This document shows, piece after piece, positions 3,223-32,499 of a DNA stretch of 64,000 nt. The notes under the pieces are model-generated. The model was not told the origin of the DNA, searched no databases, and saw only the letters and a list, made by a program, of their open reading frames with translations. How positions within the stretch are numbered: position 1 is the stretch's first letter; every line of letters starts with the position of its first letter. This DNA is from Bradyrhizobium sp. 195 (GTDB taxonomy: Bacteria > Pseudomonadota > Alphaproteobacteria > Rhizobiales > Xanthobacteraceae): contig NZ_CP082161.1 in NCBI RefSeq assembly GCF_023101665.1, forward strand, positions 620,001 through 684,000, written 5' to 3'. The translations under genes and the position numbers were made by a program.

Positions 3223-4647
3223 GTGAAGGGATTGGGCCGGGTAACGCTTCGACGCAAGTTAGCTGCCATCGTTGCAGCCGACGTAGCAGGTTATTCTCGT
3301 TTGATAAGTCATGACGAGACCGCCACCATTCAAATACTTTCCGCTTATCGCCAAATTGTGGATGGGCTTATCTCTGATTTCGGCGGCCGGATAGCGAACA
3401 CAGCGGGCGATAGTATTCTCGCCGAGTTTCCGAGCGCAACGGACGCGGTTGAATGTTGCGTGGCCGTTCAGCTTCGCATGTTTGAGGCTGAGAGGGGGCA
3501 GCCGGAAGACCTAGCGCTCCGGTTTCGGATAGGCATTCATTTGGGCGACGTGGTCGTTCAGGGGGATGATCTCCTCGGGGACGGAGTTAACATCGCAGCA
3601 CGATTAGAAGGCATCGCCGACCCCGGAGGTATTTGCATATCCGGAGCCGTCTTCGACCAGATCGATGGAAAGATCGGTCACCCTATCGAACCTCTTGGGC
3701 TTCAGACTCTTAAAAATATCGCGCGCCCGGTCGAAGCCTACGCAATTCAGTTACGAAGTCGCCTGGCCTCTTCAGAGACGGCAAATCCCTCCTCATCGAA
3801 GTTTCAGCAGGAGGTTCGATATTGCCGATCTGAGGACGGTGTCCGATTGGCTTATTCAGTCGTTGGCAATGGTCCCATTCTGTTGAAGTCAGCGAATTGG
3901 ATCAATCATTTAGAGCTCGATTGGGAGCTTCCTCTGTATCGTCACCTCTTCGTAGGTTTGACGAAGCGGCACAAACTCGTTCGGTATGACGCACGCGGCA
4001 ACGGCTTGTCTGATTGGGACCAAAGTGAACTGTCGCTGGACGCCTGGGTAAATGACATGGAGGCTGTCGCAGATGCAGTCGGCCTCGAACGCTTTCCTAT
4101 CTTTGGTTTTTCGCAGGGATGCGCGGTGTCGATTGCGTATGCGGTCCGCCATCCCGAAAGAGTATCCAGGCTCATCTTGTTCGGTGGCTTCGTGACCGGC
4201 AGATTCAAGAGGCCTTCGATCACCGCTGCAGACCTTGAGCGATACAAAGCTACGGCAACCCTCATCAGACTGGGATGGAGCTCTGAAGATCCAACGTTCC
4301 GACAGATGTTGGCCTCGCAACTAATACCGGGCGCTACTAAGGAACAAGCGCTTGCCTTCAATGAAATGCAACGACGGAGTTTGTCAGCGGAAAGCGCTGC
4401 CAGATACTACGAAACTGTAAGTAACTTCGACGTCCGCGACCTTCTTCCGCAGGTATCTGTCCCGACGCTCGTGCTGCATTTCAGAGATGATGCCATGGTT
4501 CCGCTGGAGCAGGGTCGGCTGATGGGCGCCGGAATAAAGGGCGCAAAATTCGTTTCCTTACCCGGCAAGAACCATCTGCCCTTGGAAAACGATCCGGGCA
4601 TGCCGCAGTTTTTCGACGAACTGGACTCGTTCCTTCGGGCAGACTAA
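3223..4647 (+). CDS. Class III adenylate/guanylate cyclase fused to alpha/beta hydrolase
   Basis: 474 residues from a GTG start. Residues 10-180 form a class III nucleotide cyclase domain: AADVAGYSRL carries the first metal aspartate, NTAGDSILAEFPS the second, and NIAARLE the Asn/Arg pair that stabilises the transition state. Residues 195-474 form an alpha/beta hydrolase with the nucleophile elbow GFSQG (Ser297), an acid in FRDDAMVP (Asp422 or 423) and GKNHLPL (His451), so both halves look active. The GAGTGAAGGG context gives only a weak ribosome site. Similar cyclase-hydrolase fusions occur in rhizobia; the hydrolase substrate and its link to cAMP are unknown. Confidence 0.88.
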   Translation: MKGLGRVTLRRKLAAIVAADVAGYSRLISHDETATIQILSAYRQIVDGLISDFGGRIANTAGDSILAEFPSATDAVECCVAVQLRMFEAERGQPEDLALRFRIGIHLGDVVVQGDDLLGDGVNIAARLEGIADPGGICISGAVFDQIDGKIGHPIEPLGLQTLKNIARPVEAYAIQLRSRLASSETANPSSSKFQQEVRYCRSEDGVRLAYSVVGNGPILLKSANWINHLELDWELPLYRHLFVGLTKRHKLVRYDARGNGLSDWDQSELSLDAWVNDMEAVADAVGLERFPIFGFSQGCAVSIAYAVRHPERVSRLILFGGFVTGRFKRPSITAADLERYKATATLIRLGWSSEDPTFRQMLASQLIPGATKEQALAFNEMQRRSLSAESAARYYETVSNFDVRDLLPQVSVPTLVLHFRDDAMVPLEQGRLMGAGIKGAKFVSLPGKNHLPLENDPGMPQFFDELDSFLRAD

Positions 4648-4834
4648 GCGGCTTCGACCGATGTCTTGCGAATGTCAGCAAGTGGCCGTTAGCCGATTCG
4701 CAGGGGCGAACTGGCCATGTCCGGTTCTGACGGCAGAACGGTACGACCTAATTCGCGGGCTAAGGGTCATGCCCGCACGCCCTGGCGCATCCGGTTTGCA
4801 TTGATGCCCAGAGTGACGACGCAGCAATGGCACC

Positions 4835-5518
4835 TCACGCGTAGGCCACCCAACCACGGAAAGTGAAGCCGGTGTAGAACAGCGTCGGCTCGGAGAAACC
4901 GGCCTCGCGCAGGATCGCCTCGTCCTGTGCAGGTGTGAGGATTTCCAGATGGTTGGTGACGGCGTTCCGCGCGGCCGCGGCCTGCTCGGGCTCGACGCCG
5001 GAGGCGGCCAGGAATGCGGAGTACCGCGACAGCCATAGCGGGCGCTCCTCATTGCCCTCGGGCGCGCTCAGATGGGCGACCACGAAAGCTGCGCGCGGCT
5101 TCAGCCGTCGGCGGACCTCCGAGGCGATGCGGCGTCGCTCCTCGACATCGACGAAGTGCAACGTCAACAGGCAGCTGGCACCGTCAAACGGTCCGCCCGG
5201 TGCATCGTCGATGTAGCCCTGATGAAGACGCGCGCGCGATGCGAGCGGGCCCAGGGTTTGCCCGGCGAGCGCCAGCATCGCCGCGGAGGGGTCCACGCCG
5301 TCGAAGCTCCAGCGCGGATGCGCTTGCGCAAACGTCTTCAACTCAAGGCCGCCGCCGGCGCCGAGGACGAGGATCCGCGCATCCTCACGCGCGCGCTCGG
5401 CCAGCAGGATCGCCGCCATCGACAGCATGGCATTGTAGCCGGGCACGAAGCGCGGCGGGCCTTCCGTGTATCGCGCCACGGCCTGCGGATCGGAGAACAT
5501 GGCTTGAATGTTGGTCAT
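4835..5518 (-). CDS. Class I SAM-dependent methyltransferase
   Basis: 227 residues. The SAM-binding motif I reads ILVLGAGGGLE, followed by the acidic strand end FDGVDPSAAML and a motif-IV-like FDGASCLLTLHFV. The fold is the Rossmann type of small-molecule methyltransferases; no substrate-specific motif is recognised. The ATG at 5518 (AAGGAC upstream) is preferred to the longer start at 5548. It lies 26 bases after the Rrf2 regulator gene on the same strand, so the two are probably one transcript under that regulator. Confidence 0.85.
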   Translation of the reverse strand: MTNIQAMFSDPQAVARYTEGPPRFVPGYNAMLSMAAILLAERAREDARILVLGAGGGLELKTFAQAHPRWSFDGVDPSAAMLALAGQTLGPLASRARLHQGYIDDAPGGPFDGASCLLTLHFVDVEERRRIASEVRRRLKPRAAFVVAHLSAPEGNEERPLWLSRYSAFLAASGVEPEQAAAARNAVTNHLEILTPAQDEAILREAGFSEPTLFYTGFTFRGWVAYA

Positions 5519-5544
5519 GGCGTCGTCCTTGCTGAATGGGCCAA

Positions 5545-6003
5545 TCACGCACCATGTGCGCGCATGCCCTGCTGCTTGCGGGACCCGAGGCGCTTGCGGA
5601 AATCCTCGCTCAGCATCGCCAGCGTCACCTCGCCGAGCCGCGACAGCAGCAGCGCCTCCGCATCGCCAAAGGCCTGATCGAGCGCGGCATTGACGGCCTG
5701 CTCGACGAGACAGCCGGGCGCCTCGGTCCGATTGCCCATGGCCAGCAGCGCCGGGCTGCCAAGCGCGGTGTAGACGTCACGCAGCGTCACCCTCGAGAGG
5801 TCGCAGGCCAGCGTCCAGCCGCCGCCATGCCCCTTCTCGGAGCGAACGTAACCGAGCTCCCGCAGGCCCGCCATGATGCGCCGGATCACCACCGGGTTGG
5901 TGTCCATCGCCTTCGCGAGGGTCTCGGATGTGAACGGGCCGGGTTGCTGCGCCATGTGCAGCAGCACGTGCAGCACGCCGGATAATCGGGAGTCACACCT
6001 CAT
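5545..6003 (-). CDS. Rrf2 family transcriptional regulator
   Basis: 152 residues. The N-terminal winged helix [20 protein letters not shown] is followed by the Rrf2 wing signature [16 protein letters not shown]. Only one cysteine (in [10 protein letters not shown]) is present, so an Fe-S cluster of the IscR or NsrR kind is unlikely. That fits the YwnA/BadM-like non-cluster members. The start at 6003 sits inside a 7-bp-arm palindrome, and a consensus-like promoter places the transcription start at or next to the ATG (see the regulatory entry). The downstream methyltransferase is its likely target. Confidence 0.88.
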
Positions 6004-6039
6004 GTAACTTAATATGTTACATATCTGTGTCGAAGTCAA
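6002..6039 (-). promoter_or_regulatory. Promoter and palindromic operator of the Rrf2 gene
   Basis: ATGTAAC (6002-6008) and GTTACAT (6016-6022) form a perfect inverted repeat around 7 bases. On the minus strand TTGACT (6039-6034), 17 bases, then CATATT (6016-6011) make a sigma-70-like promoter whose start point would fall on or next to the ATG at 6003. The operator overlaps the -10 box and the start codon, so binding would block transcription directly. That this is the Rrf2 protein's own site is inference. Confidence 0.6.
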
Positions 6040-6349
6040 CCGTTGACCTTGCCGCACCGGTGCAACCCGCGGCGAGGCCGTACGGCAGGGGCGAAGTTCT
6101 GGATTGTCGGGACAGAGGCTGCCGGGAAACGCAGCAGGCGTTGCGTGACGCGTAGGAAAGCGGACGCGATCAGAACTTGTCCGATGATGCCATCATGCGC
6201 CTGTGTTGCCCGACGGTGCAACGGCGTTCGGCCCGACGGATCAGCATTTGCGCAATCCGCCTAAGCCATTGATCCCGCTTGAGCCGGCTACTGTGCATGG
6301 GGTTGTTTTCGAGTTTTTTGTCTTGGCGGGCCAAAACACGGAGGTCACC

Positions 6350-6427
6350 ATGATGATTTGTCACGGTGACGCCGCCGCGCGCGAGCGCAACAATCGGCCA
6401 CGGCATCGCGTGGACTTTTCGTCCTGA
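6350..6427 (+). CDS. Possible 25-residue leader peptide
   Basis: A short frame beginning MMICHGDAAARERNN has an excellent ribosome binding site (GGAGG, 5 bases before the ATG) and ends 46 bases before the next gene. It is too short for homology recognition. It could be a translated leader or chance. The rest of 6023-6473 contains no other supported gene. Confidence 0.25.
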   Translation: MMICHGDAAARERNNRPRHRVDFSS

Positions 6428-6473
6428 CCTCGCGCGGCACCCGTTTTCATCCATCCATTTGTCGGAGGCGCAC

Positions 6474-6767
6474 ATGCAGGTTTACAATGTGGTCAAGTTC
6501 AAGGTGAAGCCGGGTGAGGAAGCCGCCTTCCTCGACGCGCATCGGAACGGCAAGGCCAAATGGCCGGGCCTGGAGCACGGCGTCATCATCAAGACCGGCG
6601 AGCAGACCTTCTGCCTGATCGGCACCTGGTCCAGCCAGGATGCGATGGTCGCGGCCCGAGCGGCGATGATCAAGACCCTCGACAGCTTCAGGTCCGTGCT
6701 CGAGGACCAGGGCAACGGCCGCGGCGTAACCGATGCCGTTTCGGGGGAAGTGGTGCTCGATCTCTAG
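6474..6767 (+). CDS. Small ABM-like (ferredoxin-like fold) protein
   Basis: 97 residues: MQVYNVVKFKVKPGEEAAFLDAHR, then FCLIGTWSSQDAM. The pattern of an edge strand with VKPG, a helix and a late strand with GxW is that of dimeric antibiotic-biosynthesis-monooxygenase-like proteins. The start at 6474 has TCGGAGG 6 bases upstream. No cofactor or substrate motif is present and the neighbour YgiQ gene is convergent, so function is unassigned. Confidence 0.6.
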   Translation: MQVYNVVKFKVKPGEEAAFLDAHRNGKAKWPGLEHGVIIKTGEQTFCLIGTWSSQDAMVAARAAMIKTLDSFRSVLEDQGNGRGVTDAVSGEVVLDL

Positions 6768-6784
6768 CAGGCGAGCCGCGCCCG

Positions 6785-8806
<2,022 letters not shown>

Positions 8807-8890
8807 GGCGCCAAGGGATAGGGCTCCGGCCCCGCGAATTCAACCGACGGACGCGTGAAAGATTGAGGTTCCCTGACCGATCCGGGCGCT

Positions 8891-9757
8891 TCAGCCTCCG
8901 GCGAGCGCCTGCCGGACCTCGGCCGTCGTCGCCGGTTCGCCGCCATGCTCGCGCACCCTCCGGACCGCGTCCTCGACAAGGCGAAGATTGGTCGCCGTCG
9001 AACCCAGCAGCGCATCCTCGAGCCCGACGCGGATATGTCCGCCGCGGGCGACCGCATCTGCGATCAACGGTGTGAGGTCGACGCCGAGGCCGGAGATCAT
9101 CCAGGGCGCGCCGCCGGCCTCCTCCTCGGTCAGCGTGACCAGTGCCGCAAGGCCATAAGGCTTTGGCGGAAAGCAGAACGCGAATTGCTGCGAGAACATG
9201 AAGCGGTAGACCGGCGTCTTCACACCGCTCGCGCGCGCCAGTGCCGCGCCGGCGCGGATGAAGCCCGGCTCGTAGATGGCGAAGGCGGGGTGAATTCCGT
9301 GGCGCCTGGCCACGCCAAGCCCGTGCCGGATGTGGGTCTCCGGATTGAGATAGGTCTCGGCCGGCTTGGCGTCCGCCGTGGTGGCGGTCAGGGTGAAGTT
9401 GACGCTGCCGGGATCGACCACGGCAAATTCGAGCAGGCCGCGCTCGGCTAGCGCCTCGATATGGGCGAAGCGCGCCTTGGGGTCGGCGATGTTGCCGCGC
9501 GCATCGAGGCCGGGGATCGAGGGATAAACGGGCACGTCGATCCTGGCACGAATGCCTTCGATGATCCGCGCATAGACCTGCCAATCGAAAGTCTGCGGTC
9601 CCCCGCCGTCATAGGCATGCGTGTGAATGATCGCGGCGCCGGCCTTCGCGCAGGCAATGCCCTCGGCGATGATTGCGTCGATCGTATCGGGGATACCGGG
9701 CTGAAGCGCGCGGCTCCAGGGTCCGTTCAGTGCCGCCTCGATCCAGACCTTCTGCAT
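8891..9757 (-). CDS. BKACE family 3-keto-acid cleavage enzyme (DUF849)
   Basis: 288 residues, TIM barrel. The zinc-binding motif IIHTHAYD, the PSIPGLDARG segment and the late GLEDAL motif match the beta-keto acid cleavage enzyme family, which condenses a beta-keto acid with acetyl-CoA to give acetoacetate and a CoA ester. The founder is 3-keto-5-aminohexanoate cleavage enzyme of lysine fermentation, but the family has many substrates and the neighbours (YgiQ, a transporter) do not identify this one. Confidence 0.9.
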   Translation of the reverse strand: MQKVWIEAALNGPWSRALQPGIPDTIDAIIAEGIACAKAGAAIIHTHAYDGGGPQTFDWQVYARIIEGIRARIDVPVYPSIPGLDARGNIADPKARFAHIEALAERGLLEFAVVDPGSVNFTLTATTADAKPAETYLNPETHIRHGLGVARRHGIHPAFAIYEPGFIRAGAALARASGVKTPVYRFMFSQQFAFCFPPKPYGLAALVTLTEEEAGGAPWMISGLGVDLTPLIADAVARGGHIRVGLEDALLGSTATNLRLVEDAVRRVREHGGEPATTAEVRQALAGG

Positions 9758-19830: not shown

Positions 19831-21063
19831 ATGAAGCTCCCCACCGTCACCCCCGCCGATATCCGCCGCGCCCTGCTGCTGCGCGAAGAAATCGCGCTGC
19901 TCGATCTCAGATATGAGGCAGGCTTCGCGACGGGGCATCCGTTGTTCGCGGCCAATATGGCCGTCGACCGGATCGCGATTGAGGCCGAGACGCGGCTGCC
20001 GCGCAAGGACGCGGCGATCGTACTCTATGACGACGGTGAGGGGCTGGTCGCGACCGGCGCCGAACGCCTCGCCGCGCTCGGCTATATCAATATCAGCGCA
20101 CTCGACGGCGGGCTGAAGGCCTGGCGCGCGGCGGGCTATGAGGTCTTCGAGGACGTCAATTCCTACTCGAAAGCGTTCGGCGAATTGGTCGAAGCGCGGC
20201 GGCACACGCCGTCGTTCAGCGCCGACGAGGTGGCCAAGCTGATCGCCGACAAGGCTGACATCGCCATCCTCGACGTTCGCCGTTTCGACGAGTACGCGAC
20301 CATGAACATTCCGGGCTCGGTCAGCGTGCCCGGCGCGGAGCTGGTGTTGCGGGCAGGGCAGGCCGCGCCGAATCCCGAAACCACCATCATCGTCAATTGT
20401 GCCGGCCGCACCCGCTCCATCATCGGAACCCAGTCGCTGATCAATGCCGGCGTGCCCAACAAGGTGCGCGCGTTGCGCAACGGCACCATCGGCTGGACGC
20501 TGGCGCGGCACACGCTCGACCACGGCGCCGACAGGCGCGGCGCGGTCGGGCCGTTCGAGGGTGGTCCGGCCAATGCGCGCGATGTCGCCTATCGTGCCGG
20601 CGTGCGCCACATCGGCGCGAACGAGATGGTTGCGCTTGTCGCACAGGCGGATCGCACACTCTACCGCTTCGACGTGCGCGACGCTGAAGAGTATGCAGCC
20701 GGCCATCTCCCCGGTTTCCGCCATTATCCGGGCGGGCAACTCGTGCAAGAGACCGACATGGCCGCGCCGGTGCGCGGGGCACGCATCCTCCTGACCGACG
20801 ACAAGGCCGTTCGCGCTGACATGACGGCGTCGTGGCTGGCGCAGATGGGTTGGGAGGTCTATGTGCTGGACGGAGGCTATGACGGCGCGCTCGAGATCGG
20901 CCCGCCGCGGGTGCTGCCCAAGCCCGATCCGGCCCACCGTTACCGTCGGCCCTATGAAGGCACCGACATCGCGCAAGCCGCGATGCAGGCCTATCTCGAT
21001 TGGGAATACGGCCTCGTCGAGCAGCTCCGCCGCGACGGCACGCATGGGTTTTATGTGATTTAA
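19831..21063 (+). CDS. Triple rhodanese-domain protein
   Basis: 410 residues with three rhodanese-like domains at about 8-110, 125-240 and 255-365. Only the middle one keeps the catalytic cysteine loop (NCAGRTRS, Cys190). The first has LYDDGEG and the third LLTDDKAV at that place, so those are non-catalytic. A typical rhodanese start motif (LDVRRFDEYATMNIPGS) opens the middle domain. The protein probably moves sulfane sulfur in the cytoplasm, or the inactive domains serve regulation or dimer contacts. It stands alone. Confidence 0.9.
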   Translation: MKLPTVTPADIRRALLLREEIALLDLRYEAGFATGHPLFAANMAVDRIAIEAETRLPRKDAAIVLYDDGEGLVATGAERLAALGYINISALDGGLKAWRAAGYEVFEDVNSYSKAFGELVEARRHTPSFSADEVAKLIADKADIAILDVRRFDEYATMNIPGSVSVPGAELVLRAGQAAPNPETTIIVNCAGRTRSIIGTQSLINAGVPNKVRALRNGTIGWTLARHTLDHGADRRGAVGPFEGGPANARDVAYRAGVRHIGANEMVALVAQADRTLYRFDVRDAEEYAAGHLPGFRHYPGGQLVQETDMAAPVRGARILLTDDKAVRADMTASWLAQMGWEVYVLDGGYDGALEIGPPRVLPKPDPAHRYRRPYEGTDIAQAAMQAYLDWEYGLVEQLRRDGTHGFYVI

Positions 21064-23712: not shown

Positions 23713-24523
23713 ATGGGTCTCCTCGGCCTCCTCGTCGGGCTCGGGCTGCTCGTGCTGTTCGCCTTCCGCGGCTGGAGCGTGCTGCTGCTCGCGCCGTTCG
23801 CCGCACTCGTTGCCGCGCTGTTCGGCGGTGAGCCGCTGCTCGCGAACCTGACCCAGGTGTTCATGCTCAACGCCGCGGGATTCCTCGCCCAGTTCGCTGC
23901 CGCGGCTCGACGTCAGCTATCTCGCCGAGCAACGCTTCGGCGGCACGTCGCTCGCGGCCGTTGCCGGCGTGTGGTCGGTCGTGGTCGCGCTGGCTGCGGC
24001 CATCGTCACGACCATCGCGCTGAACTGGGCGCGCCTGCCGGCGCTCCGCCGGACCATGGACGCCGGGGCCAATGCGTCGGTCCTGCCCGCGTTCAGCGTC
24101 GCCAGCCTCGTCGGTTTCGGCGCCGTCGTCGCCTCGCTGCCGGCGTTCACGATCGTGCGCGACTGGGTCCTCGGAATCGAAGGCGGACCGCTGGTCTCGC
24201 TCGCCGTCGCGACCAACATCCTGGCCGCGCTGACCGGGTCGGCGTCGGGAGGCCTGACCATCGCCCTCGAGGCCCTCGGCCAGACCTATGTCGAACTTGC
24301 CGATCGTATCGGCATCGACCTCGGGCTGATGCATCGCGTGGCGGTGATCGGCTCGGGGACCCTCGACATCTTGCCGCACAATGGTGCGGTGGTCAGCCTG
24401 CTCGCGATCTGCGGCCTGACCCATCGCGACAGCTATTTCGACATCGTCATGGTGGGCATCGTGACGTCGCTGCTGGCGCTGGTGGCCGTGATCGCGCTGG
24501 GCAGCGCGTTCGGCGCGTTCTGA
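23713..24523 (+). pseudogene. Decayed GntP-type permease
   Basis: The first frame gives about 60 residues of a normal permease N-terminus (GLLVLFAFRGWSVLLLAPFA, then AAGFLAQF). From about 23905 the second frame carries the C-terminal half: YLAEQRFGGTSLAAVAGVWS, TNILAALTGSASGGLTIALE and LDILPHNGAVVSLL, ending at 24523. Together only some 265 residues remain of the usual 430-460, so about 180 residues are missing at the junction as well as the frameshift. It cannot make a working transporter. The sequence is otherwise well preserved, suggesting a recent loss. Confidence 0.8.
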
Positions 24524-24541
24524 AACGAACGTGCCGGCTGC

Positions 24542-25651
24542 CTATGCGGCGAGCCGGTCGAGCAGGGCCAGCATGACCGGTGCGTCGGGCATCGGCAGCA
24601 CGGCGTCGATCCGTTCGAGCAGGCGCGACTGCAACAGCGCATTGCGCGCCTTGCCGATGGTGCCGAGCGGCCCGCGAAAACCGTGGTCCTCCCAGGCCAT
24701 TTCGAGCAGGCTCTCGCTCATCAGGGCCTCGATCAGCTCGTCGGCCTGGCGCTCGATGCTGATGAGCGGATGGGCCGAGAACACTGTCGGCTGCGGATAG
24801 AGAATGACCGGCTTGGCCGGGGCGTTGGCCTCGAGCCGCTTCCAGCGCTCCGCGTCCTGGAGCACCCATTCGACGAGCTGGTTCTCGTAACCGACGATCA
24901 GCGGCTGCGCGCCGGCGCCGCCGGCGACATAATCGTCGAACAATTTGCCCGAGGACGGCGGCTTGAAGCCCATGCGGCGGAAGACGGTCGCGACGTCACC
25001 GTCGATCTTGCTCAGCGTGTCAGGCATCACGACGTCGCCGGACAAAAGGCTCGCCGCAAGGCCCGCGAACATGAAACCGGAGTTGGATTTGTTCGGATCG
25101 GTGCAGACCACGCGGGCGCGGCCGAACAGGTCGGCGACGCCGATTGCCGACCAGTTCTCGCCGGCGATGATGGCCTTGAGCAGTTTCGACAGGTCCACCG
25201 TGTAGCGTGGCCCGCCGGCGGGCTGGGCGATGCCACCCTTCACCAGGCCGTCAGCGATCCTGTCCCAGGAATAAAGCACGATCGGCGAATTGAAGATCAC
25301 CTGGTCGCGCGAGATCTTGATGCCGGACGAGCGGGCCACCTCGACCAGCACCGACGAGGACGGCCACAGGAATTGCGGCTTCTGGTCGAGCAGCGCGCGC
25401 TCGCGGACCATTTCGACCGACCCGGCGCGGCGTCCGTCGAGGATCAGCCCGAAGCGGCGTTCCAGCACGCTCTTGACGCGGGCATTGGCGAGAAAACCCT
25501 CTTTCTCGCCGCCCGCAAAGCCGGACAGCCGCTTCGCTTCGCCGAAGCGGCCGGCGATTTCGGGATGCTCGCGCAAATACACATAGCCGCCGGTCGCCGC
25601 CGCGCTTGCAGCGACGAGGCCGATGCCGAAGGCGCGGCGCGAGATAGCCAT
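24542..25651 (-). CDS. Tat-exported solute-binding-like protein of TelA cassette
   Basis: 369 residues. The N-terminus MAISRRAFGIGLVAASAAA is a twin-arginine signal, so the protein folds before export and may remain anchored. The body has the type 2 periplasmic-binding outline: SSVLVEVARSSGIK, VIFNSPIVLYSW, TDPNKSNSGFMFAG and VGYENQLVEW, the last two being ligand-cleft elements in molybdate/phosphate-type binders. There is no permease or ATPase nearby. Its start overlaps the XpaC-like stop codon by one base, so expression is coupled. Confidence 0.75.
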   Translation of the reverse strand: MAISRRAFGIGLVAASAAATGGYVYLREHPEIAGRFGEAKRLSGFAGGEKEGFLANARVKSVLERRFGLILDGRRAGSVEMVRERALLDQKPQFLWPSSSVLVEVARSSGIKISRDQVIFNSPIVLYSWDRIADGLVKGGIAQPAGGPRYTVDLSKLLKAIIAGENWSAIGVADLFGRARVVCTDPNKSNSGFMFAGLAASLLSGDVVMPDTLSKIDGDVATVFRRMGFKPPSSGKLFDDYVAGGAGAQPLIVGYENQLVEWVLQDAERWKRLEANAPAKPVILYPQPTVFSAHPLISIERQADELIEALMSESLLEMAWEDHGFRGPLGTIGKARNALLQSRLLERIDAVLPMPDAPVMLALLDRLAA

Positions 25652-26298
25652 CAGGAGGTTCCTCTCTTGGTCTCGACGGGCGCTGCCGGGCCGATGTCCT
25701 CGTCGAGCGAGCTTTTCAACAGCTTCAGCTCGATGTCCAGCTTGTCGAGGTCGGCGTCCTGGAGATTGGCGGCATAGCGGGTGAAGGCGCCATCGAGCCG
25801 ATCGATCATGGCACCTGTAGCGGCCAGTCGCGCCGTGTCGGGCACCGGGCTCTTCTCCAGCGCGCGATAGGCGTCGGCAATCTCGGCCGCGCGCGGCAAA
25901 TAGTAGGTCAGGAATCGGCGCACCCGGTCGAGCCGCAGCGGATCGCGCTCGATGGCGGCGAAAATGTCACGGGCGATTTGTACCAGATGACGGATGCGAT
26001 CGGCGACCGCGCGGCTTCGGATCGCCGACGCGGCATAGTCCATCTGTTCCGCAAGCGGCTCGGCCTCGGCCAGCAGCTCGTTCGCGAACTCGATCTTGCC
26101 GCGCGCGACGCCGCTGGCCTCCAGCGCGGCGAACCGGTTTCTTGGCGCAAGTGCCACGACAATGCCGCCACCGGCGACCGCGCTGATCGTAAGCGCGATC
26201 CAGAACGGCATGGCGAGCCCGATCGCGAGCGACGGCAGCAGCACTGCTGCTGCCACGCCACCCGCGATCCAGCCAAGCCCGGACGGCATCGCGGCCAT
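25651..26298 (-). CDS. XpaC-like membrane protein
   Basis: 215 residues. Two adjacent membrane helices near the N-terminus (GWIAGGVAAAVLLPSLAIGL and WIALTISAVAGGGIVVALA) are followed by a long helical cytoplasmic part with FLTYYLPRAAEIADAY, the conserved core of the 5-bromo-4-chloroindolyl phosphate hydrolysis (XpaC) family. XpaC proteins are commonly encoded beside TelA. No hydrolase active site is recognisable. Its ATG follows the upstream stop codon without a gap. Confidence 0.75.
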   Translation of the reverse strand: MAAMPSGLGWIAGGVAAAVLLPSLAIGLAMPFWIALTISAVAGGGIVVALAPRNRFAALEASGVARGKIEFANELLAEAEPLAEQMDYAASAIRSRAVADRIRHLVQIARDIFAAIERDPLRLDRVRRFLTYYLPRAAEIADAYRALEKSPVPDTARLAATGAMIDRLDGAFTRYAANLQDADLDKLDIELKLLKSSLDEDIGPAAPVETKRGTS

Positions 26299-27888
26299 TC
26301 AGTTGTATCCTCGTACAGCGCGAAACGCGTCGGTGAGACTCTTGCTGCCGTCGAACACGCGGCCTCCGGTCAGTTTCGCCAGATTGTCAAGCTGGGCACG
26401 ATCGACCTCGGAGCCGAACGTCACGCCGAACACCGGCACACGGTGACCATCCGCGCGCCAGGCATTCTCGAATGTCGACATATATCCCTGGCTCTTGCCG
26501 TCCGTCATGATGACGATGGCCGGCAGATGCTGGCCGTCGTCGAGCTGCGTCTTCATCGCGGCGAGTGCCTGCGCCGCGCAGGTATAGAAATCGGTGCCAC
26601 CGCCGGCGCGTAGTTCGAGCGCGCGCGCGAGCAGGCCGGTCTGCTCGCTCTCGTCGCCGCTGGCATGCGCCGTCCAGAGGATGTGATCGCTGAACGGCAG
26701 CACCAGGATTTCATCCGACTTGGTCCATTGCACCAGCACCTCGCGCGTGCGCGCGGGCGTGAGCAGGAAGCGCATGGCGTCGAGCAATTGCGCTTCGCCG
26801 GCGCCCTGCATGCTGCCGGAGACGTCGAGGCAGAGCGCCGTCAGGGAAGGTCGCCGCAGTGCCTCCTGATAGATCAGGAGCGCCTTCTGAATCACTGCAG
26901 GCTCCGGCGGACGGATCACGGTCACCGGCCGGGACGGATCCAGGTTCGTCTTCGGGTCAGCCGCCAGCGGCGTGGCACGGCCGAGCTCGACCCGCCGGCC
27001 GGTCCTGGCGATCTTGCCTTGCGCATCGCCGTTGAGCAGGAAGGCCTGAAGATCGGTGAAGAAGCCTTCGACCTCCTTGCCACGGCCGCGGTCGACGAAG
27101 CCCAGTGGCGAATCGGCAACCGCCACGCCGTCGGCGGGATAGATCGCGTAAAGCGGCTCATGGTTGTCGGCGGTCAGCTTGTCGTTGGTCTCCTTGATGA
27201 CGGCCTCGTAATTCCAGATCGCCTGGTAATGCGCGCCGCTGCGCTCGCCGTCGCGGTAGAGGTCGGCGAGCCAGCCGCTCGAGCCCGCGCTGCGCTCGAC
27301 GCCCTTCAGCAGCCCGCGCGCCGTCGCGAGCACCTCCGGCTTGTCGAGATCGCCGGCCTCGATCAGGTCGGGCTTGCCGATGCCGGCCGCCAGCATCGCG
27401 AGATAGGCGGCAGCTCCCGAATTCGACTGGGTCGCCGATGTCATCAGGAATTTCAGCTTGCCGCCTTGCACGGCGGCTAGGATGTCCTTGGCCGTCACCT
27501 TGGCACCGATCCAGCCCAGCGCCTCGGCCCTGGACCGGCGCACGCCGAGGATGACCGGCATCTGCACGATCGACTTGACCATCTTCACGCGCCGCGTGGT
27601 GTCGAACATGTCGATCCAGATCGAGGCGGCCGGCCAAACCGCGTCGGCGCCGGGATCGCCGGTCTTGAGGGCCAGGGCGATGTCGAGCGATCCCTGATAG
27701 CGCATGGTGCAGGTCGCGTTGCGGGACTTGCAGAACTCCTGCACCAGCGGTTCGAGGACGTCGTTTTCCGAGCCCGAGAGGATGGTGAATTGTGGCCCGG
27801 GCCCGCCGCAGCCCGACAGCATCGTGGCAATCAACGGCACTGCCGCGAGCAGCGCCAGCGATCGCCGCAGGAAGCGAAGAGTTCTCAT
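26299..27888 (-). CDS. Lipoprotein with solute-binding domain fused to von Willebrand A domain
   Basis: 529 residues. A lipobox (ATMLSGCGG, Cys about 27) ends the signal peptide. Residues 30-320 form a type 2 solute-binding domain (TILSGSENDVLEPLVQEFC, MTSATQSNSGAAAYLAM). Residues 345-529 are a von Willebrand A domain with a complete metal site: LDVSGSMQG, GGGTDFYT and MTDGKSQG. Such a fusion would sit on the periplasmic face of a membrane, bind a ligand in the first domain and a protein partner through the second. It is the second gene of the TelA unit. Confidence 0.85.
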   Translation of the reverse strand: MRTLRFLRRSLALLAAVPLIATMLSGCGGPGPQFTILSGSENDVLEPLVQEFCKSRNATCTMRYQGSLDIALALKTGDPGADAVWPAASIWIDMFDTTRRVKMVKSIVQMPVILGVRRSRAEALGWIGAKVTAKDILAAVQGGKLKFLMTSATQSNSGAAAYLAMLAAGIGKPDLIEAGDLDKPEVLATARGLLKGVERSAGSSGWLADLYRDGERSGAHYQAIWNYEAVIKETNDKLTADNHEPLYAIYPADGVAVADSPLGFVDRGRGKEVEGFFTDLQAFLLNGDAQGKIARTGRRVELGRATPLAADPKTNLDPSRPVTVIRPPEPAVIQKALLIYQEALRRPSLTALCLDVSGSMQGAGEAQLLDAMRFLLTPARTREVLVQWTKSDEILVLPFSDHILWTAHASGDESEQTGLLARALELRAGGGTDFYTCAAQALAAMKTQLDDGQHLPAIVIMTDGKSQGYMSTFENAWRADGHRVPVFGVTFGSEVDRAQLDNLAKLTGGRVFDGSKSLTDAFRAVRGYN

Positions 27889-27954
27889 GCGCGCGCCTTC
27901 ATGCAGCAGCCCTTATGCAGAAGCTTCATGGGGAAACCGTTACATGGCACGCAT

Positions 27955-29040
27955 CTAGGGAGCGGCCTTCGATATGGCGGTCTTCAACTCGTCCGTTAGC
28001 TCCGCCATGCGGCGCTCGATCCCGGCGCGCTTGGTGCGGCCCTGCTCCTGCACATCGAGCACGCCGGCGATGGTGTCGATCAGGTCGCGGTTGGTCTTCT
28101 CCAGGGTCTGGATATCGACGATACCGCGCTGCGACTGCTTCTCGATCTCGATTGCCTGGGTCTTCATCATCTCGGACGCCTGGCGCATCATCTCGTTGGT
28201 CGCGTCGGTGACGGTCTTCTGCAATTCAAGCGCGGACTTTTGCCGGTTTAGGCCGAGCAGCAGGATCATCTTCTGCTTCCACACGGGAATCGTCAGCTCG
28301 GTCGTCGCCTGAAGATTCTCGATCAGCGTCTCGTCGCCGGACTGGACGATGCGGATCTGCGGCAGCTGCTGGATGCCGATCTGGCGCGCCTGTTGCAGAT
28401 AGAAGACGCGCTTCTCCAGCCGGTCGAGCGCCTGGAGCGCATCCTGATAGGTCTGTGCGGCGAGCATGGCGTCGCTGCCCGCGCCTTGCGCCTTCGCGCT
28501 CCGCTCCATCTCGACGAGTTTGCCGCCGCGGAATTCCTCGGTGAACGCCTTGCCTGCGGCGATGTGCATGTCGAGCTGGCCGAGCGCGCCGCGGGTCTGT
28601 TCGTAGAGATCGTCGAGCAGCGCGATGTCGCGGCGCAGGACCTCCTTGTTGCGATCGAGCTCAACGCAGACGCGGTCGATCTGCGAGGCGACGTCGTTGA
28701 ACTGCTCGGTGAACCGGCGCAGCCGCGCCTCCGCCGACGAAAAAAGGCGGGTCAGAAAACCCTTGTCCTTGAGATCGGCTGGATCGAGCCCCCGCGCCTT
28801 GCCGAGGATGTCCGTCAACAGCTTGCCGGTGGCGCCGAGCTCGCGGTTCTGGGTCTGGGCGAGGATGCGGTCGGCGAACTCGACCACCGAACGCTGGGCG
28901 CGCTCGCCGAAGGTGACGAGACGTGAGCGATCCGAAATGTCGATCTCGGACTTGATGCGTGCGACCGCTGAGGCGTCCGTCGGTAACGCCGGGAGATTGA
29001 TCGTTTCGCTCACCACTCGCTCCTTGTTCTCGGCGGCCAT
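27955..29040 (-). CDS. TelA family toxic anion resistance protein
   Basis: 361 residues, almost entirely helical and cytoplasmic. Family segments include ITFGERAQ-like VTFGERAQRSVVEFAD, LDLLYEQ-like LDDLYEQTRGALGQLD, RKSALELQKTVTDATNEMM and the late ASEMMKTQAIEIEKQSQRG. TelA members are linked to tellurite and antimicrobial tolerance but their molecular action is not established. It is first in the unit, 66 bases before the lipoprotein gene. The 260-bp divergent gap to the esterase gene probably carries both promoters. Confidence 0.88.
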   Translation of the reverse strand: MAAENKERVVSETINLPALPTDASAVARIKSEIDISDRSRLVTFGERAQRSVVEFADRILAQTQNRELGATGKLLTDILGKARGLDPADLKDKGFLTRLFSSAEARLRRFTEQFNDVASQIDRVCVELDRNKEVLRRDIALLDDLYEQTRGALGQLDMHIAAGKAFTEEFRGGKLVEMERSAKAQGAGSDAMLAAQTYQDALQALDRLEKRVFYLQQARQIGIQQLPQIRIVQSGDETLIENLQATTELTIPVWKQKMILLLGLNRQKSALELQKTVTDATNEMMRQASEMMKTQAIEIEKQSQRGIVDIQTLEKTNRDLIDTIAGVLDVQEQGRTKRAGIERRMAELTDELKTAISKAAP

Positions 29041-29301: not shown

Positions 29302-30972
29302 ATGGAAACGATGGCGCGCAGGATTGCGAAGCTGAGTGTGTGGCTAGCCGGTGCCGTGGCCGCGATGGGAGCGAGCAGCGCGTTCGCCGCGACGCTGGCG
29401 GAGGATGCAGACAGCGTCTGCAAGGGCCTCGTCGGGGGCACTGAGGCCGTGAAGATCGATTCGGCGATGCTGCTGGCGCCCTCGCAGCTCGCCGTCGCCG
29501 AACGCGGGCCGACGCCGTCCGGACGCATCACGCCGGCCAATCCCGGCTTCTGCAAGGTGCTCGGCCATATCGACCCGGTCGACCCCAAGGCGCCGCCGAT
29601 CAGATTTCAGGTCAACCTTCCCGTCGAATGGAACGGTCGCTCGCTGCAATATGGCGGCGGCGGTTTCAACGGCGTGCTGATCACGGGTCTTGCGCTGCCG
29701 CCGGCCTCTCCCTTCGACAAGCCGTCGCCGCTGGCTCGAGGCTTCGTCACCTACGGCACTGACTCGGGCCACGAGACCAAGCAAGGCGAGCCGCCGCAGG
29801 TCTTTGCGCTGAATGACGAAGCCTTCGAGAATTTCGCTCACCGCGCCTACAAGAAGGTGCGCGATGCGGCTGTTGGGCTGATGGACCGCGCCTACGGCAA
29901 GAAACCCCAGAAGATGTACTTCATGGGCTCGTCCGAGGGCGGCCGCGAAGGCCTGACCATGGCGCAGCGCTACCCGGATGATTTCGACGGCATCTTCGCC
30001 CGCGTCCCCGTCATCAACTGGGTCGGCCTGCAGCACGCCGGCACGCGGTCGGGTCTCGTCACCATGGGTGCGGGCTGGATCAATCCGGCGCAGGTGAAGC
30101 TCGTCGGTGAGGCCGTGCGGGCGGCATGCGACAAGGCCGACGGCTCCGACGATGAGCTGGTTCAGGACCCCGTCGGCTGCAAGGCCGCCTTCAAGGTCGA
30201 GACGCTGCGCTGCGCCTCTGGCCAGAGCGGCGATCAGTGTCTCACCGACGCGCAGATCAGGGCGATCGAGACCCTGCACGCGACCTACAAATTCCCGTTC
30301 GCGCTCGCCAACGGCCTCGACGATTATCCGGGCTGGGGCGTCTCGGGCGAGGATACGCCGGCGATCGGGCCGACCGGCGGCTGGACCGCGTGGTGGCTCG
30401 GCACTGCGCCGCCGGCGCAGCCGCCCGCGCCCAACAACGGCATCGCCTGGATCTACGGCGCCGGCGGCATTCAATATGTCTTTGCGCGCGATCCCAAGCT
30501 CGATGTCACCACCTACAAGGTGGAGGAGCACAAGGCGCGGCTGCTCGAGGTCTCGAAGCTGATGGATTCGACCGATCCCGATCTCAGTCGCTTCCGCGCC
30601 CGCGGCGGCCGGCTGATCATGCTCGAGCACATGGCGGACTACGCCCAGAACCCCTATGCCGGCATCCGCTATTTCGAGAGCGTCGAGCGCAAGCTCGGCA
30701 AGGCCGAGACCGCGGAGTTCGCGCGGCTCTACACCGCACCCGGCGTCGATCATGTCGGCTCCGGCGCGCCGGCCAATGTCGACATGCTGAGCGTTCTGGT
30801 CGACTGGGTCGAGAAGGGCAAGGCGCCTGGCGATCTCGAGGTTATCGAGCAGAAGGTCGAGCCGCCTTCATTCGCGACCCTGCGCGCGCTGCCGCTTTGC
30901 CGCTGGCCGGCCTGGCCGCATTACAAGGCGGGTGCGGTGACGGAGGCGGCGAGCTTCACCTGCGCTCCGTGA
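29302..30972 (+). CDS. Tannase/feruloyl esterase family hydrolase
   Basis: 556 residues. A signal peptide (SVWLAGAVAAMGASSAFAAT) directs export. The mature protein follows the tannase family: LQYGGGGFNGVL, then TYGTDSGHET, the nucleophile elbow GSSEGG with Ser211, and GVDH with His484. The family normally has Cys just before the serine and just after the histidine, joined in a disulfide; here these are Ser210 and Val485, so the bridge is absent. Calcium-site and lid regions are not resolvable by eye. Likely substrate is an aromatic ester; specificity unknown. Confidence 0.87.
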   Translation: METMARRIAKLSVWLAGAVAAMGASSAFAATLAEDADSVCKGLVGGTEAVKIDSAMLLAPSQLAVAERGPTPSGRITPANPGFCKVLGHIDPVDPKAPPIRFQVNLPVEWNGRSLQYGGGGFNGVLITGLALPPASPFDKPSPLARGFVTYGTDSGHETKQGEPPQVFALNDEAFENFAHRAYKKVRDAAVGLMDRAYGKKPQKMYFMGSSEGGREGLTMAQRYPDDFDGIFARVPVINWVGLQHAGTRSGLVTMGAGWINPAQVKLVGEAVRAACDKADGSDDELVQDPVGCKAAFKVETLRCASGQSGDQCLTDAQIRAIETLHATYKFPFALANGLDDYPGWGVSGEDTPAIGPTGGWTAWWLGTAPPAQPPAPNNGIAWIYGAGGIQYVFARDPKLDVTTYKVEEHKARLLEVSKLMDSTDPDLSRFRARGGRLIMLEHMADYAQNPYAGIRYFESVERKLGKAETAEFARLYTAPGVDHVGSGAPANVDMLSVLVDWVEKGKAPGDLEVIEQKVEPPSFATLRALPLCRWPAWPHYKAGAVTEAASFTCAP

Positions 30973-31003: not shown

Positions 31004-32383
31004 TCACTCCGCTGCCATCGCCTGCGCCCCGCCGAGCAGGCGCGCATTGAGCCGGCCGCCCGAGAACAGCATGTCGTCGAGGGCTTCGTCGATATCGGCC
31101 GAAACGATCGAGTTGCCGCCGTCGCGCGCCAGGCTGGCTTGCGCCAGCCTCCGCATCAGTTCCTTGATGAAGGCGCAACTCGTCCCCTCGCTGCGGCGGG
31201 CAGCCTCGATGACGATCGCGTCGTCGAGCGGCAGTCCCTTGCCATAGAGGCGCACCAGCTTGCTCCGGCCATTCTCGTCCGGGAGCGGCACTTCGATGGC
31301 TTGGTCGATGCGGCCGGGGCGACCGGCCAGGGCGGCTTCCAGATCCTGCGGCCGATTGGTGGTGAGAACGAACAGGATGTCGGCATCCTGCTTCAGTCCG
31401 TCCATCTCGTTGAGCAGCCTGTTGAGCATGGATTCTTCGCACGGCCCCATGTTGCGGGGGTCGCGCGCGATCAGGTCGACGTCCTCGATCACCACCATCG
31501 AGGGCTGCAGCAGCCGTGCCAGGCTCATATAGGCGTTGAGAAGACCTATCTGCTCGGCGGTGATAATCAGGGTCGTGTGTCCAGGCAGATGCGTTGCGAG
31601 ATAGCGGATCGTATGGGTCTTGCCTGTGCCGGGCGGTCCATAAAGCAGAATGCCCTTGCGCGTCGATTGCCCGAGCCGCCGCAACTGCTCGCGGGTGCCG
31701 ACGAACGTCAGCGCGTTGCGATCGAGCAGCCGCAGAGTCCGCTCCGGCAGGATCACCCCGTCGCGTCCGACGGTCGGCAGCCGGTGTACATTGATGCCGC
31801 GGGATTGGCCGCGGTAGTCGGAAGACTCCTCGAGCGACAGGATCTTGCCGCGATAGGTGCGCGCGGCCTGCACGGCGTCTTCGAGCTCGCCGAAGCAACG
31901 CTGCACCACGGCCGCCCCCGCGCTTCCCGCGGACACCATGATTTCGATCCGGATGCCGGGCTCGCGACGGGATTCGCGGTTGGCGCAGAGCAGGACCGCA
32001 TGGCGCAAGCCGTCCTGCTCGCAGAGCCACAAACCGTTGTCGAGGCACCGGGACGGACTGCTCTCGCCGACATCGACGTCGGAATATTGCAGCGGTGCGA
32101 TCGCCACGGCGCTCCGATCGTCGCGGAGTAGGCGTGCAAACGACAGCGTGTCGTAGTGTTCCTCGGCAAGTCCGAACAAGTCGATGTGCGCTCCAAGGAG
32201 CCTGTCGAGCGCGGCCTGGACGTCCACCCGCATGTGGCCGGGAAACTGCCGGGTGGTGGTCACGAGCATGCTGAGCGGAACTCCTTCGAAGTACGCGTCC
32301 AGAACTTCGAATGCATAGGCGAGCTCGCCTTCGGGTGCGTGCTCTTGGTCTTGCTCTTCCGCTTGCTCCTGCCTCTGCGCCAC
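31004..32383 (-). CDS. AAA family ATPase
   Basis: 459 residues from a GTG at 32383 (AGAGG 6 bases upstream); ATG at 32449 is an alternative. An unrecognised N-terminal domain of about 230 residues precedes an AAA module with Walker A GPPGTGKT, Walker B MVVIEDVD, sensor LFVLTTNRP and arginine finger AGRPGRID, the CDC48/FtsH-like layout. There is no membrane segment or zinc protease. The C-terminal small domain ends in the usual helices. The role could be unfoldase or assembly. It is divergent from the MarR gene. Confidence 0.85.
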   Translation of the reverse strand: MAQRQEQAEEQDQEHAPEGELAYAFEVLDAYFEGVPLSMLVTTTRQFPGHMRVDVQAALDRLLGAHIDLFGLAEEHYDTLSFARLLRDDRSAVAIAPLQYSDVDVGESSPSRCLDNGLWLCEQDGLRHAVLLCANRESRREPGIRIEIMVSAGSAGAAVVQRCFGELEDAVQAARTYRGKILSLEESSDYRGQSRGINVHRLPTVGRDGVILPERTLRLLDRNALTFVGTREQLRRLGQSTRKGILLYGPPGTGKTHTIRYLATHLPGHTTLIITAEQIGLLNAYMSLARLLQPSMVVIEDVDLIARDPRNMGPCEESMLNRLLNEMDGLKQDADILFVLTTNRPQDLEAALAGRPGRIDQAIEVPLPDENGRSKLVRLYGKGLPLDDAIVIEAARRSEGTSCAFIKELMRRLAQASLARDGGNSIVSADIDEALDDMLFSGGRLNARLLGGAQAMAAE

Positions 32384-32457
32384 GGCGTGCCTCTTTGTCT
32401 GCAACTGAAGCGAGTAGAACAAATATGGAACATGAGCGCGCGAGAACATCAAGCGCT

Positions 32458-32499
32458 TTGACAAGGAAATCGGCAGGCGCTATTTACTTCGCATGCGAA
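32458..32499 (+). promoter_or_regulatory. Promoter with palindromic operator at the MarR start codon
   Basis: TTGACA (32458-32463), 17 bases, TATTTA (32481-32486) make a near-consensus promoter whose start point falls at about 32493, the A of the ATG. The perfect palindrome TTCGCATGCGAA (32488-32499) has the start codon at its centre. Together they predict a leaderless, self-repressed mRNA. Binding by the MarR protein itself is inference. Confidence 0.65.

Follow-up and report, generated by a model that had tools for sequence, protein, structure and literature searches.

Two solute-binding folds beside TelA and XpaC: a conserved four-gene set of Bradyrhizobium sp. 195 as a candidate envelope-spanning sensor or scaffold

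What could two solute-binding proteins be doing in an operon that holds no transporter? The question is raised by four genes of Bradyrhizobium sp. 195, which lie in a stretch of 64,000 nucleotides of contig NZ_CP082161.1 (positions 620,001 to 684,000; assembly GCF_023101665.1), called here the window. At 24542-29040, on the minus strand, open reading frames (ORFs) follow one another for TelA, for a predicted lipoprotein in which a solute-binding protein (SBP) domain is fused to a vWA domain (SBP-vWA), for XpaC, and for a fourth protein that we call P4, with gaps of 66, 0 and -1 bases. A preliminary description of this DNA had given the same ORFs, positions and gaps, and our ORF check agrees with it on all of them. 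The comparisons show a set that is conserved and, judged from its sequences, inherited together. With confidence evenly balanced, we think that its products could form an envelope-spanning four-protein sensor or scaffold, built on the TelA-XpaC pair and reporting to TelA, without import.

Three of the four proteins belong to recognizable families. TelA matches PF05816 with 315.5 bits against a curated cut-off of 30 (positions 2-331 of 332), and XpaC matches Halogen_Hydrol, PF10112 (E 6.2e-39, 134.4 bits against a cut-off of 29.8). The SBP-vWA protein matches both SBP_bac_11, PF13531 (E 3.7e-11, 43.7 bits against a cut-off of 25), and VWA_3, PF13768 (E 6.1e-7). P4 matches nothing significantly in Pfam, NCBIfam or PADLOC, the best Pfam hit being to an unrelated family at E 0.18. 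The host genome, of 9.1 Mb, holds one P4 match and one TelA match, and the named relatives nearest to it are Bradyrhizobium.

The preliminary description had guessed, with no Pfam match to lean on, that P4 is a second solute-binding protein, and profile comparison bears the guess out. Profiles of P4 and SBP-vWA, built from 31 and 15 diverse sequences, align by hhalign over 300 columns with a probability of 99.4 and E 5.3e-21; against the SBP half alone the E value is 3.2e-14, and shallower profiles give a probability of 88.0 and E 3.1e-6 for P4 and that half. In a genome search, the P4 profile also matches the SBP half of one SBP-vWA protein (genome G296, E 1.2e-4). Five of the 31 P4 family members match PF13531 directly with E values of 0.1 or lower, the best being 7.8e-6, and PF13531 is carried as a precomputed domain by two of 120 P4 relatives, among the relatives listed. 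The P4 of the window has no PF13531 match, the curated SBP_bac_11 cut-off not being reached, and P4 profiles found no SBP in the PDB. Because of the hhalign matches we take P4 as a second protein of SBP fold; on the evidence of these profiles, it is a diverged paralogue of the SBP half of SBP-vWA.

The two SBP-fold proteins also keep strict company. An even sample of 299 genomes of the phylum has nine with P4 and nine with full-length SBP-vWA (549-863 bits); these are the same nine genomes, which come from six families, and in every one the coordinates place the two genes next to each other. The chance of two identical nine-genome sets would be about 2e-17 under the assumption of independent genomes, which these are not. 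The other 83 genomes matched by the SBP-vWA profile give partial matches, mostly to the vWA domain. TelA is found in 65 of the 299 (60 over the cut-off), including all nine P4 genomes, and adjoins the set in eight of them. PF10112 is found in 34 (32 over the cut-off) and in seven of the nine; in the remaining two, G171 and G296, the fourth gene does not match PF10112, and what links it to XpaC is a modest hhalign match (probability 77.5, E 1.9e-5) together with its two-helix N-terminus and its position.

The same company is kept over a wider range. Among 80 named loci found via P4, 78 hold all four genes in the order TelA, SBP-vWA, XpaC, P4, and the other two (L007 and L017) are cut by a contig start; since P4 was the bait, this count describes the company of P4 and not the frequency of P4 among TelA genes. 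A larger collection of 113 loci was reduced to 90 by setting aside 23, namely short duplicates (L001, L082-L090, L097-L106 and L113) and two loci with a P4-like gene alone (L111 and L112). All four genes are present in 86 of the 90, of which 81 have the order of the window and five the order P4, TelA, SBP-vWA, XpaC; L091 and L047 may be one genome, and neither 81 nor 86 is a count of independent genomes. The exceptions are L007, L017, L109 and L093, the last without TelA and with an XpaC that falls below the cut-off of that count and is found in other searches. Beyond the alphaproteobacteria, matches in a plasmid collection include full sets (P4, TelA, SBP-vWA and an XpaC-like protein) in Variovorax and Sphaerotilus, annotated as "toxic anion resistance protein" and as "substrate-binding and VWA domain-containing protein" or "vWA domain-containing protein". 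All four were also recovered by tblastn and ORFs from Nonomuraea gerenzanensis, of another phylum (Actinomycetota). The preliminary description is supported in that the two binding proteins co-occur strictly, and the set as a whole recurs across genera, families and phyla, which is more than chance. Pairwise distances of the four families correlate with r 0.936 to 0.981 over 15 representatives (P4 identity under 80%), with none of 999 permutations as high, and with r 0.876 to 0.935 within the 10 alphaproteobacterial representatives, values that a common species history would by itself produce as well.

Where would the four products act? That each compartment would receive a partner, as had been suggested, is supported by the families and by predicted topology, with a hydropathy window of 1.6 as the cut-off for a hydrophobic segment. 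TelA has no such segment, and hydropathy shows it as soluble; XpaC has two, residues 11-29 and residues 32-50, which are joined by hardly any loop; SBP-vWA has a single one, within its signal peptide. The lipobox Cys of SBP-vWA is present in 22 of 25 aligned rows; the rows of L065 and L092, trimmed directly after it, have a Cys upstream of the row start, and L093 has none. For P4, free export by twin-arginine translocation (Tat) had been proposed. SRR is found in all 18 P4 rows of a first, alphaproteobacterial alignment, whereas in the wider alignment only eight of 31 rows have a Tat-like motif (S/T-R-R-x-F/L) and the rest start with an ordinary hydrophobic segment, which an anchor would fit better. 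In these alignments, the twin arginine is confined to alphaproteobacterial relatives. P4 is more likely to be membrane-anchored than freely exported by Tat, and we infer that its N-terminus is a signal-anchor, inserted via Tat in alphaproteobacteria.

The vWA domain of SBP-vWA is intact, as had been claimed: the five residues of the metal ion-dependent adhesion site (MIDAS), D355, S357, S359, T432 and D463, do not vary among the aligned homologues, which makes it a vWA domain of the MIDAS type. All 14 aligned SBP halves match PF13531. By sequence, the nearest PDB entry to the SBP half is a pyridoxal-phosphate-binding SBP (P5PA, 6wce; E 3.4e-5), followed by molybdate-binding ModA structures (8zj6, E 0.0015; 1amf, E 0.0032; ModA range 0.0015-0.004) and iron-binding SBPs (E 0.013 to 0.06); PDB searches with P4, SBP-vWA, TelA and XpaC as single sequences gave nothing useful. 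In the HMMER alignment with 1amf, ModA residues 12 and 39, which we take to be molybdate ligands, are paired with S40 and position 67 of SBP-vWA, and this makes an oxyanion-type ligand a reasonable guess for this protein. All 25 rows have Ser at S40; at position 67, 10 have Ser and 15 have Thr. S40, S155, N156, G158, S203, S204, Y227 and E228 are all invariant in 25 of 25. At the C-terminus, the RGY(N/Q) tail has an invariant R526, with G527 and Y528 conserved in at least 90% of the 25 rows. RGYN is among the best-conserved stretches of the protein, and it is possibly a docking tail.

In our proposal, two ligand clamps, SBP-vWA and P4, would be placed at the cytoplasmic membrane, on its outer side, and what they hold would probably be an oxyanion or a metal complex. 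Ligand binding might alter a contact of the vWA domain that depends on Mg2+ and the MIDAS, either with P4 or with a partner in the wall or envelope. The XpaC hairpin and the P4 anchor would relay this state to TelA, and TelA would work at the inner face to help the cell tolerate toxic anions or envelope stress; the complex would serve for sensing or scaffolding, without import. It is the ligand, the interactions, the direction of the signal, the MIDAS contact, the membrane side of P4 and the stress function that we infer here. A more general version, which we hold only tentatively, is that of a widespread transmembrane signalling module, in which a duplicated SBP, one copy a vWA-lipoprotein and the other anchored, would provide clamps that measure an oxyanion or metal complex and switch TelA. 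If true, this would be a signalling route without histidine kinase, ABC (ATP-binding cassette) transporter or sigma/anti-sigma factor, and it would give a signal input to the long-enigmatic TelA family.

Several observations weigh against this proposal. Parts of the SBP site are lost in many P4 rows: position 48, read from the hhalign alignment as the counterpart of S40, is Ser in 22 and Gly in nine of 31, S78 is Ser in 23 of 31 and position 234 is Ser in 17 of 31, so P4 may bind no ligand. The N-terminus of the P4 of the window has no hydropathy window above the cut-off, which makes its membrane anchoring uncertain. XpaC has almost no part exposed outside the membrane, and its contact with the outer proteins is therefore unexplained. 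The link between XpaC of the alphaproteobacteria and that of other lineages is weak (hhalign probability 77.5, E 1.9e-5). TelA is not beside the set in G267, where it lies on another contig in an XpaC-TelA pair, and, as far as the locus goes, Deinococcus taeanensis has P4, vWA and XpaC-like genes with no TelA beside them. Two Streptomyces plasmids (L111 and L112; about 7764-8993) encode a P4-like protein of about 24-29% identity, near which TelA, SBP-vWA and XpaC were not found; it is possibly a relative with another job.

The alternative that survives best, which we nevertheless find doubtful, is a structural scaffold with no ligand sensing at all. The SBP folds would be modules for protein-protein contact, the MIDAS would hold an envelope partner, and TelA would be an inner-face brace in a complex that stabilizes the membrane or the wall. 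That P4 keeps only some of the cleft residues of its paralogue is in line with this, as is the resemblance of the conserved C-terminal RGY tail to a docking element; vWA domains, moreover, are mostly adhesion or assembly modules. The eight residues of SBP-vWA from S40 to E228, invariant in every row, go beyond what a mere scaffold would require.

Uptake, by contrast, looks unlikely to us. The two SBPs would hand an ion that they have scavenged to a permease whose gene lies elsewhere, with TelA and XpaC responding, and it is true that their fold is that of importer SBPs, that five of 11 diverse loci (L065, L092, L093, L094 and L110) have an ABC ATPase gene at a distance of up to about 8 kb, and that a BPD_transp_1 permease is found about 4 kb from the set in L020. 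The five ATPases, however, are of different kinds (an importer with TOBE, exporters with ABC_membrane or ABC2, an oligopeptide type) and at varying positions, and for this reason we see in them no more than the ordinary abundance of ABC genes. In L093, where alone among the alphaproteobacterial sets TelA is not local, a complete ABC importer cassette follows directly downstream (3918-7271), but this cassette has its own SBP (PF01547), which sits between it and P4. Fusion to a vWA domain is also not usual among importer SBPs. The close neighbours point the same way. Over 86 loci, a same-strand neighbour within 100 bases is found upstream in two and downstream in 16, and these form 10 clusters. 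In Pfam, their representatives are ribosomal protein S2, PhoX, ASCH, a nuclease, a metallo-hydrolase, a nickel-responsive domain, three unmatched proteins and, below its cut-off, an alpha/beta hydrolase. There is no ABC permease or ATPase in the operon or among these 10 representatives, and no conserved fifth gene was found across the loci; the survey relied on a home-made gene caller based on GC content at third codon positions (GC3), which includes some spurious ORFs and missed the TelA and a separate SBP-vWA start of L110. The view of the preliminary description, that here are two binding proteins without ABC permease or ATPase, is thereby upheld: they are not regularly accompanied by ABC permeases, and no permease is conserved across loci. 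In nine Rhizobium-type loci the gene for ribosomal protein S2 (PF00318) is directly downstream of P4 (e.g., L023, 9195-10061), and therefore the set adjoins a core gene there.

An anti-phage defence system is, in our opinion, very improbable. It would agree with the patchy distribution of the set: 13 of 146 genomes of the genus have a full-length P4 and three have a fragment of it (G552:C141:193547-193975, G653:C122:25925-26136 and G625:C8:76678-76788), and a class-wide search around G296 found P4 in one of 232 genomes, G296 itself. The fragments are probably remnants of a lost operon, and these counts in the genus suggest loss in place plus transfer. In Variovorax a Wadjet gene is found within a few kb of the set, but at that one locus only; PADLOC matched none of its families to the four proteins at E up to 1, and 72 candidate stretches of viral contigs, obtained as pattern matches, held no P4 relative. 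At that locus (L107, Variovorax sp. SRS16 plasmid 2; 3515-5910 and 15268-16683), flotillin-domain and OB-fold genes are on one side and Wadjet JetA on the other. Least probable of all is a metal-insertion or protein-maturation complex, in which vWA would have the use that it has in assembly systems of the chelatase or CoxE type. Although the vWA matches include a Mg-chelatase subunit and BatB, among many others, no MoxR/AAA partner gene is in the set or conserved beside it in the loci surveyed, and the vWA domain is predicted to be extracytoplasmic, where chelatase-type ATPases do not act.

The features are collected in Table 1. In one further detail the preliminary description probably needs correction, since it started TelA at the ATG at 29040. 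This ATG is kept in only one of seven close relatives (L003), while the GTG at 29013 is kept in all seven; the GTG preceding it is GCG in L006. In the upstream alignment, of 12 loci, an AAGGAG conserved among the close relatives falls inside the N-terminus as first read, and for these reasons the start is probably the GTG at 29013.

Table 1. Features of the four-gene set, in coordinates of the window.
Feature	Coordinates	Strand	Basis
TelA as first read	29040-27955	-	ATG start at 29040
TelA, probable true extent	27955..29013	-	PF05816 E 5e-94; GTG start in 7/7 close relatives
AAGGAG, probable TelA ribosome-binding site	29020..29025	-	6/7 close relatives; CAGGAG in the seventh
SBP-vWA lipoprotein (predicted), 529 aa	26299..27888	-	PF13531 + PF13768/PF00092
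SBP-vWA lipobox LSGC, residues 24-27	27808..27819	-	sequence; Cys in 22/25 rows
SBP domain of SBP-vWA, ModA/SBP_bac_11 type, residues 33-318	26935..27792	-	PF13531
vWA domain of SBP-vWA, residues 350-525	26314..26841	-	Pfam; MIDAS
MIDAS DxSxS (D355, S357, S359)	26812..26826	-	invariant in 25/25 rows
MIDAS T432	26593-26595	-	invariant in 25/25 rows
MIDAS D463	26500-26502	-	invariant in 25/25 rows
SBP-vWA C-terminal tail RGYN	26302..26313	-	conservation in 25 rows
XpaC, 215 aa, two-helix membrane hairpin + helical domain	25651..26298	-	PF10112
XpaC membrane hairpin, residues 11-50	26149..26268	-	hydropathy
P4, second SBP-fold protein, 369 aa	24542..25651	-	hhalign vs SBP-vWA
P4 N-terminal signal/anchor with SRR, residues 1-26	25574..25651	-	alignment motif

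Around the set, the window has a tannase/feruloyl esterase gene (29302-30972, plus strand; PF07519, E 1.6e-174) divergent from TelA and, past it, an AAA ATPase of FtsH/proteasome-type similarity (31004-32464, minus strand; PF00004), which does not cluster conservedly with the four genes across 11 diverse loci. On the other side, two overlapping plus-strand ORFs in different frames (23713-24576 and 23969-24523) converge on the 3' end of P4; they are partly hydrophobic, neither has a Pfam or NCBIfam match, and they read like a single transporter gene split across two frames, or a miscall. Farther out, at 19831-21063 on the plus strand, is a protein with three rhodanese-like stretches (PF00581).

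TelA proteins occur widely, and phenotypes with tellurite and with antibiotics have been described for them, but no mechanism is known. In Listeria, disruption of telA (lmo1967) increases susceptibility to nisin 4-fold and to tellurite 2-fold (PMC12791056); PMC9604106 treats telA, yceG and terD in Bacillus, and PMC6225704 has a note on tellurite. The set studied here puts TelA in a defined assembly that would span the compartments, with extracytoplasmic domains of ligand-binding type that can be purified, and therefore the stimulus of TelA becomes a testable question. It is also a case of two SBP folds used jointly without a permease. In the open-licence literature we came upon no account of these four genes as a set or of the duplicated SBP, from which absence from print does not follow, and none of TelA jointly with vWA or with solute- or substrate-binding proteins, apart from a single match to a review on vaults; the main text of a survey of the Psp system (PMC11237479) has no TelA, XpaC or vWA.

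How does the set compare with known systems? In Ter/TelA systems, TelA has been placed in a predicted membrane-linked complex recognizing metals or toxic ions (Anantharaman, Iyer and Aravind 2012, as cited in PMC12054061 and PMC6225704), which is likewise what we propose; here, no Ter-family gene was found among the nine flanking ORFs of the window that were run through Pfam. With ModA of the molybdate ABC importer, the SBP domain shares the fold family (SBP_bac_11), but it comes without ModB and ModC, fused to a vWA domain and paired with a paralogue. The fusion itself already has a name at NCBI, "substrate-binding and VWA domain-containing protein", given to the Variovorax RefSeq protein and to several actinobacterial relatives, which describes the architecture only, with no mechanism and no partner genes. 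To call the arrangement unusual for its two periplasmic partners, as the preliminary description did, is too strong, given that name and the presence of P4 in all nine genomes with a full-length SBP-vWA. The closest parallel is the TelA-XpaC pair of the xpaC-yaaN type (lmo1966-lmo1967 in Listeria), in which PF05816 likewise stands beside PF10112. Here XpaC comes after SBP-vWA, whereas in the known pair it comes before TelA, and the pair is extended by two secreted proteins of SBP fold, one of them with a vWA domain. In one family of the sample (f16), TelA and PF10112 are both present in 21 genomes and adjacent in 19, as counted from listed coordinates, and among the 21, P4 or a full-length SBP-vWA is present in G267 alone, in a set of SBP-vWA, XpaC and P4 without local TelA, besides its separate XpaC-TelA pair. 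As most of these pairs stand without P4 and SBP-vWA, we think that TelA-XpaC is the older, general core and that SBP-vWA and P4 are its strictly coupled extension: the named fusion and the pair were known already, and what this locus adds to them is the two SBP proteins.

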